Of a stretch of DNA of 37,470 nt, positions 1 to 33,567 are shown in pieces. Location of the stretch: assembly GCA_030950825.1 (NCBI GenBank), contig JAUZQT010000069.1, positions 1 to 37,470 of the forward strand, read 5' to 3'. The number at the start of each line of letters is the position of its first letter. The first letter of the stretch is position 1. The position numbers and the translations under genes were made by a program. Source of the DNA: Mariprofundaceae bacterium (GTDB lineage Bacteria > Pseudomonadota > Zetaproteobacteria > Mariprofundales > Mariprofundaceae). The notes under the pieces were generated by a model. The model saw nothing but the letters and a program-made list of their open reading frames with translations. It made no database searches and had not been told where the DNA came from.

Positions 1-156
1 GTAACTCGCAATAAATAACCTACCAAAATCGCGCAGGGTTTTTGTTCCGCATCAAGGCGAAAAAAGCAAAGCATAGCTTGCTATGTAAGCTTTTTTGCAA
101 CGCCGATGCTGGGCAAAAAGACAAGCTAGTTTGGTGGGTTATTTATTGCGAGTTAC
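1..156. repeat. Long-palindrome (MITE-like) repeat element, copy 1
   Basis: Termini GTAACTCGCAATAAATAACC (1-20) and GGTTATTTATTGCGAGTTAC (137-156) are perfect reverse complements. The core 31-126 contains nested hairpins (GCATC/GATGC, GGCG/CGCC, AAAAAAGC/GCTTTTTT, CATAG-CTTG-CTATG). The core matches 33415-33512. Confidence 0.85.
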
Positions 157-256
157 CTTACTTCCGCCGACCCAAGGTTCACTTCCTGGCGGATGGCTAA
201 TCCTTACCGGAGCGGGATTTTCACCCACCAGAATAAACGACCTTGCCCGGCCGCAC
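157..256 (-). other. Structured non-coding sequence, possibly the 5' end of a group II intron (remnant)
   Basis: On the minus strand it begins GTGCGGCC and contains GGTGGGTGAAAATCCC, GGATTAGCCATCC and CCGCC-AGG-AAGTGAA-CCT-TGGGTC-GGCGG pairing. It resembles group II domain I 5' regions from memory. No intron-encoded protein is present in the window. Confidence 0.3.
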
Positions 257-301
257 TGTGAATTATTCAGGTTAGGTATGCCGAATAGTTGCGGCGCTGG
301 T

Positions 302-11401: not shown

Positions 11402-11445
11402 AATTAAATATTCAAGTTGTTTAATTCCCGTTCCTGAGCCATAGT
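11402..11445. repeat. Decayed or partial copy of the palindromic element arm
   Basis: GTTGTTTAATTCCCGTTCCTGAGC (11416-11439) matches the right arm of copy 2, GTTATTTAATTCCCGTTCCTAAGC (33526-33549). AATTAAATA (11402-11410) matches the left arm. The core is missing. Confidence 0.7.
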
Positions 11446-33153: not shown

Positions 33154-33382
33154 TTTCTGTTAAAATATCCTCTATTCGTATGCGTTATTTTATTGACGGC
33201 ATTATTTATTTTTGAACTTCTGATGCAAGCATAACTTACTCGCCTTGTCGTAGCTACATCCCAAAGCTATTGTTGCGTAAATTTTAGCATAGGTAACATG
33301 GCGGCAAGCTAGCGAGAATGAATGATTCAGCCTGTAATAGGATGATTCATAATCATGGGGTGAAAAAGTTCACCTACGTTAA

Positions 33383-33544
33383 GGAACGGGAATTAAATAA
33401 CATGTGCATTTGAAGCGCAGTGTTTTTGTTCAGCATGAAGGCGCAAAAAGCGAAGCATAGCCTGCTATGTAAGCTTTTTTTTGCAACGCCCATGCTGGGC
33501 AAAAAGACAAGCATGAATTGCGCAAGTTATTTAATTCCCGTTCC
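33383..33544. repeat. Long-palindrome (MITE-like) repeat element, copy 2
   Basis: GGAACGGGAATTAAATAAC (33383-33401) and GTTATTTAATTCCCGTTCC (33526-33544) are perfect reverse complements; the core is shared with copy 1. Confidence 0.88.
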
Positions 33545-33567
33545 TAAGCACAGTATAGGAGAAAGTG

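Follow-up and report, generated by a model that had tools for sequence, protein, structure and literature searches.

A hairpin-shaped, MITE-like element in two copies on a Mariprofundaceae contig, with a covarying core that may tie it to the Correia and ERIC repeats

The window, by which we mean the whole stretch of 37,470 nucleotides analyzed from a Mariprofundaceae bacterium, contains two copies of a hairpin-shaped mobile repeat of ~160 bp, together with a solitary end of the same kind of element (Table 1). An earlier note on this DNA had described palindromes at 1-156 and 33383-33544 whose arms differ between the copies and yet stay complementary within each, and they are as it described them. 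The core common to the two copies (31-126 and 33415-33512) is 91% identical, the outer 20 nucleotides agree at only 14 of 20 positions while the terminal stems are perfect over 20 bp and 19 bp, and the inner change from GCATC/GATGC to GCATG/CATGC is genuine. Each copy folds as a single long hairpin (z = -8.6 for copy 1 and -7.1 for copy 2), with none of 200 shuffles as good. Copy 1 lacks one terminal G because the contig starts inside the element, and the left TTA of its inferred target-site duplication lies beyond the contig edge. Its homologues read TTA/GGTAAC...GTTACC/TTA, which places its right end at C157; the full form, as found in genome G043, is TTA/GGTAACTCG...CGAGTTACC/TTA.

Table 1. 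Positions of the hairpin element and its parts in the window
Feature	Position	Strand	Basis
Copy 1, GGTAACTCG subfamily	1..157	+	Sequence, similarity, fold; full form in G043
TTA, right half of the inferred target-site duplication of copy 1	158..160	.	Sequence; TTA/TAA duplications at 17/20 homologous G043 copies
CAAGGCG, left box of the conserved core of copy 1	53..59	+	Sequence; pan-bacterial alignment A2
Apical hairpin of copy 1, CATAGC-TTG-CTATG	72..85	+	Sequence, alignments
CAACGCC, right box of the conserved core of copy 1	98..104	+	Sequence, alignments
Solitary end (GGAACGGGAATTAAACAAC) of a degraded or partial copy	11416..11434	-	Similarity searches
TAA, left target-site duplication of copy 2	33380..33382	.	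Sequence
Copy 2, GGAACGGG subfamily, between upstream gene and efp	33383..33544	+	Sequence, similarity, fold; same site in congeners without copy
GAAGGCG, left box of the core of copy 2	33437..33443	+	Sequence
CAACGCC, right box of the core of copy 2	33484..33490	+	Sequence
TAA, right target-site duplication of copy 2	33545..33547	.	Sequence

Rfam at its curated score yields one tRNA in the window and no family for the element, and a plasmid search with copy 2 gave no match. A weak, sub-threshold group II intron match falls at window 137-221. Copy 1 and the DNA following it (window 1-258) are identical in another genus (G043:C117). The ~110 bp directly after copy 1 (158-269), nearly identical in the same G043 contig, end in TGAATTATTCAGG, a string found again beside other copies. 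From sequence, this stretch looks like a second repeat adjoining copy 1, or a recent transfer, or cross-binning of metagenome-assembled genomes.

The element is abundant in its own genome, with ~29 places similar to copy 1 (E<1e-4) and ~45 loci found by R1, a covariance model built from 22 copies; in the order, 35 of 78 genomes have matches, several of them with dozens of copies. The loci in the own genome are 156-162 bp long and non-coding, with perfect ends of 19-20 bp, and none of the copies examined there lies inside a called gene. Genomes have subfamilies of their own: GGAACGGG in the own genome, GGTAACTCG in G043 (this subfamily includes copy 1), GGGCCTCGG in G079, GGGCACCTCG in G004, GGCATCG in G027, and GGCTGCGG in G010. 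The idea that copy 1 is aberrant or degraded was set aside, its subfamily being common to G043, another Mariprofundales genome, where it is dominant. The element had been said to reverse the usual MITE pattern of conserved ends and a variable middle; this is so between subfamilies, but within a subfamily the ends are conserved as much as the middle. Many copies with mutually mismatching arms, the finding that the earlier note had named as speaking against its reading, did not turn up among the ~45 loci in the own genome and >100 outside it. Minimal palindromes of 41 bp that consist of the two ends only also occur (G000:C35:11635, C88:13805, C167:3413, and C3:645). Four loci of G000 (L004, L020, L023, and L002) adjoin, at a YTA site, another repeat starting GGAGGCTGTCCGAGAATA, which may be a terminus of a different MITE or insertion sequence.

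Exact 3-bp duplications, nearly always TTA or TAA, flank 17 of 20 copies in G043 and 19 of 30 in G000, compared to null values for mismatched flank pairs of 0.41 and 0.26, respectively, which are high because the target is very uniform. The G004 copies show, by eye, 4-bp duplications (TATA, TGTA, AGCA, and CATA). Copy 2 is missing between a conserved upstream motif and efp in three congeners (G002, G004, and G009), in a comparison where the junction is not alignable base by base. Upstream of efp, ~50 nucleotides (CCTTGTCGTAG...AAAGCTATTGTTGCGTAAATTTTAGCATAG, window ~33246-33295) are 86-88% conserved in four congeners, unlike the rest of the intergenic region, which is not conserved. Three identical 106-bp internal-deletion derivatives, which have lost the apical part of the core and kept both arms, occupy three sites (G000:C62:10627, C78:1260, and C128:5061; L142-L144); since these derivatives have multiplied, the apex is not essential for movement. 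The dispersed near-identical copies, the duplications, the derivatives, the empty site, and the long hairpin fold with covarying arms thus mark the ~160-bp element as mobile, non-autonomous, and MITE-like, and both window copies are insertions of it. A transposase with matching ends, which the earlier note had proposed looking for, was not found beside the solo ends of the own genome, either as a RAYT or as any other kind, in a draft that is 82% complete; the solo ends there adjoin ordinary genes. We rejected the reading of solo GGAACGGG ends as the borders of an autonomous transposon, having seen only partial copies beside ordinary genes in that draft.

The mirrored arm differences are general, as judged from covariation far above chance across the alignment of 22 copies: in 25 of 57 pairs both members have changed, compared to 8.5 in shuffles (0 of 500 reaching the observed value) and 4-9 in slid structures. 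The two strands are not equivalent. The strand running from CAAGGCG to CAACG folds more stably as RNA than its opposite in all 61 pan-bacterial elements and in 78 of 80 elements of the order. Helix columns contain G·U and A·C pairs at 99:24 and 141:11, ratios that are biased because an RNA program selected the structure; when the arms are aligned symmetrically as DNA, the excess is a moderate ~1.7:1 (300:177 and 304:189). We considered and rejected the possibility that the strand bias follows gene direction, since elements lie in either orientation, with 26 of 45 co-directional with the upstream gene and no preference. Insertions lie a median of 25 nucleotides from stops, compared to ~110 nucleotides from starts. 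To us the strand bias points to selection, during the cycle of the element itself, on how one strand folds, with RNA as the simplest form; an alternative is a C-to-T mutational bias on one strand.

The interior of the element recurs far outside its order. The pattern CAAGGCG-N12-CATAG-N3..8-CTATG-N11..15-CAACG, for which our own estimate of chance expectation is ~1 match in 264 Gb, matches at least 115 GTDB stretches belonging to many phyla, the matches listed including Burkholderiales, Methylococcales, Endozoicomonas, Chromobacterium, Mariprofundus, Desulfobulbus, Selenomonas, Campylobacterales, Saprospiraceae, Acidobacteriota, SAR324, Nocardioidaceae, and others. At core positions left free by the pattern, 91.5% of cells are paired, and the core stems of the resulting alignment (A2) hold 321 double-changed cells, where shuffles give 103 and slid structures 92-119. 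Most genomes reached via the pattern carry many copies each, among them SAR324 (146), Methylobacter (115), Selenomonas (99), Aegiribacteria (29), and Saprospiraceae (27). The covariance model R2 was built from A2, an alignment without ERIC or Correia, and its boxes are set by the search pattern. Both window copies match R2, with AAGGCG...CAACG boxes in opposite arms and covarying stems, and across the phylum so do 82 of 299 genomes at E<=1e-6 (with a shortened calibration, as for all covariance-model E-values here), 32 of them outside the own order. Many full-length elements of unrelated phyla are ~153-162 bp long with differing ends; automatic detection of ends and duplications was noisy in this set, and length clustering alone was used. 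At two loci (L159 in the Chromobacterium genome G091 and L175 in the Kosakonia genome G090) two inverted cores ~16 bp apart form larger double palindromes.

Two of the best-known bacterial repeats also match. Our ERIC and Correia query sequences were checked against genomes, where the ERIC query found 93% identity in E. coli and the Correia query a 100% match in two genomes (G141 and G444) of the order holding Chromobacterium. Correia, also called NEMIS or CREE, is a palindromic MITE of Neisseria of 107-155 bp whose interior core, like that of the window element, is found by R2. It differs in its ends (TATAGTGGATTAA, compared to GGTAACTCG and GGAACGGG in the window), in a TA-type target, and in its other stem and apex letters, and no BLAST similarity of Correia to the window copies was seen. 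BLAST alone finds the Correia interior (positions ~27-79 of 107) again, joined to other ends, in ~20 more genomes of that order, Chromobacterium among them, and R2 matches 18 of the 19 loci examined at the expected place (26.6 bits, E 4e-5 for Correia/NEMIS; 39.6 bits, E 7e-9 for the best core relative). ERIC, or IRU, of Enterobacteriaceae and Vibrio is an intergenic hairpin with AAGGCG and CAACG boxes placed as in the window element, and some of its copies share the apex GAGCATAG..CTATGTGAC with core elements, but it is 127 bp long and ends in TATAC. Its invariant columns include the AGGC-GC and CAAC boxes. On ERIC loci most R2 matches lie on ERIC itself, the best at 22 bits (E 8e-4); these are weak and mutually non-independent, since ERICs are homologous. 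The converse model R3, made from 19 ERICs and run over 318 kb, gave only three matches at E<=10, all of them core elements (two Endozoicomonas and one Selenomonas; E 7e-7 to 3e-6). Over the window and four loci of the order R3 gave no match, and so kinship with ERIC would run via intermediates. In the freely readable literature we found no paper that unites ERIC with Correia by sequence, and a systematic survey treats ERIC and NEMIS as separate families (PMC2267715).

The model searches show the interior core, CAAGGCG-stem-apex-stem-CAACGC, to be a module common to Correia/NEMIS, ERIC, and many unnamed elements across bacterial phyla, and we infer from this one structural superfamily. To the account as a whole, that is, mobile MITE-like insertions, a core superfamily, a transposase acting in trans, and a selected single-strand fold, we give a probability of roughly 0.7. 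The ends would be moved in trans by the DDE-type transposase of some insertion sequence, with 3-bp TWA or 4-bp duplications, and lineages would have adapted to different transposases, which could be why the ends differ while the core stays. To persist or spread, the element itself would depend on the fold of the CAAGGCG...CAACG strand, which may be why the arms covary; the selected form would most likely be a hairpin in transcribed RNA, recognized by RNases or some other protein. Compensatory changes would build up in the source copy of each lineage and then be amplified, and the core would be read by a conserved partner. A bolder version, which we put forward tentatively and think somewhat more apt to be wrong than right, would treat the core as the actual selfish unit. 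The core would be a structured RNA, or else a hairpin specific to one strand, that is itself conserved and has a widely conserved protein as its binding partner; it would have acquired the ends of different transposases in different phyla, with ERIC, Correia, and hundreds of unnamed repeats as one ancient superfamily.

The most serious rival is convergence, in which unrelated MITEs would have evolved the AAGGCG/CAACG loop for the same host protein reader, leaving ERIC, Correia, and the window element as analogues. The ends, the duplications, and most stem letters do differ, and the ERIC model is without a match on Mariprofundales elements; we nevertheless hold convergence to be unlikely, because the boxes, the CATAG..CTATG apex, the spacing, and the length co-occur, BLAST aligns the Correia interior to elements with other ends, and the models match reciprocally. 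Less probable again is that the element is a MITE of the usual sort and that template switching or conversion maintains arm complementarity mechanically, without selection on a fold. Long near-perfect palindromes are substrates for arm-to-arm correction, and the mirrored differences between copies fit such a process. Template switching, one of two causes offered in the earlier note, may indeed contribute, but alone it leaves unexplained the strand bias, with G·U pairs outnumbering A·C on one strand, and the specific internal loops and boxes that are unpaired yet conserved across phyla; a length near 153-162 bp in unrelated lineages also argues against it. Selection on a folded single strand, the other cause offered, is supported by the compensatory changes, the conserved internal loops, and that same G·U excess.

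A host-beneficial regulatory RNA, terminator, or mRNA-stability element, kept by the host in many copies, would accord with insertions near gene 3' ends and with reports that ERIC and Correia hairpins affect transcripts, including RNase III cutting of Correia transcripts and ERIC effects on mRNA stability (PMC10969869, PMC2229807). We regard it as very improbable, given the lack of orientation preference relative to genes, the near-identical bursts private to each genome, the few or no copies in many related genomes, and a copy 2 site that is empty in congeners, so that position is not fixed. Still harder to credit is a hairpin of the REP/REPIN or IS200/IS605 type that an HUH (Y1) transposase moves in the form of single-stranded DNA. 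The hairpin, the one-strand bias, and the high copy number would suit it, but target-site duplications are present and HUH (Y1) transposases are not known to make any; there is also no GTAG-type tag and no such gene next to the solo ends.

Judged by these sequence comparisons, the element itself is a MITE, and the new part appears to be the shared covarying core that would tie it to Correia and ERIC. Work on those two over more than three decades has treated each as a separate repeat of its own lineage, for the most part with no transposase known. A covarying core shared by them, and present also in Firmicutes, Bacteroidetes, Acidobacteriota, SAR324, and others, would make one superfamily, which would point to a common partner molecule and render mobilisation and tolerance testable. 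The element also shows that the conserved part of a bacterial mobile element can be its fold rather than its ends.

Other known systems resemble the element in part. RUP, QMITE, and the Polaromonas MITE are short inverted-repeat elements moved in trans, as proposed for the window element, and Polaromonas elements with the core are among the pattern matches. Rickettsia palindromic elements are hairpin repeats of ~100-150 bp with several families per genome (PMC10969869) and, unlike the own-genome copies, often lie in-frame inside genes. REP and REPIN sequences with RAYT are, as here, dispersed hairpins with a conserved motif and a variable stem, but REPs are units of 20-40 bp with GTAG/CGTC tags (PMC3733652) and no target duplication, whereas the present element has ~160 bp and TWA duplications.

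The Rfam family V_AS5 has a weak, sub-threshold match on an Endozoicomonas element and on ERICs, and its overlap with ERIC loci fits an RNA-level role. At four ERIC loci (L269, L270, L275, and L279) the Rfam sRNA families V_AS5 and CssrA match below threshold, which suggests that some catalogued sRNAs may be ERIC transcripts.
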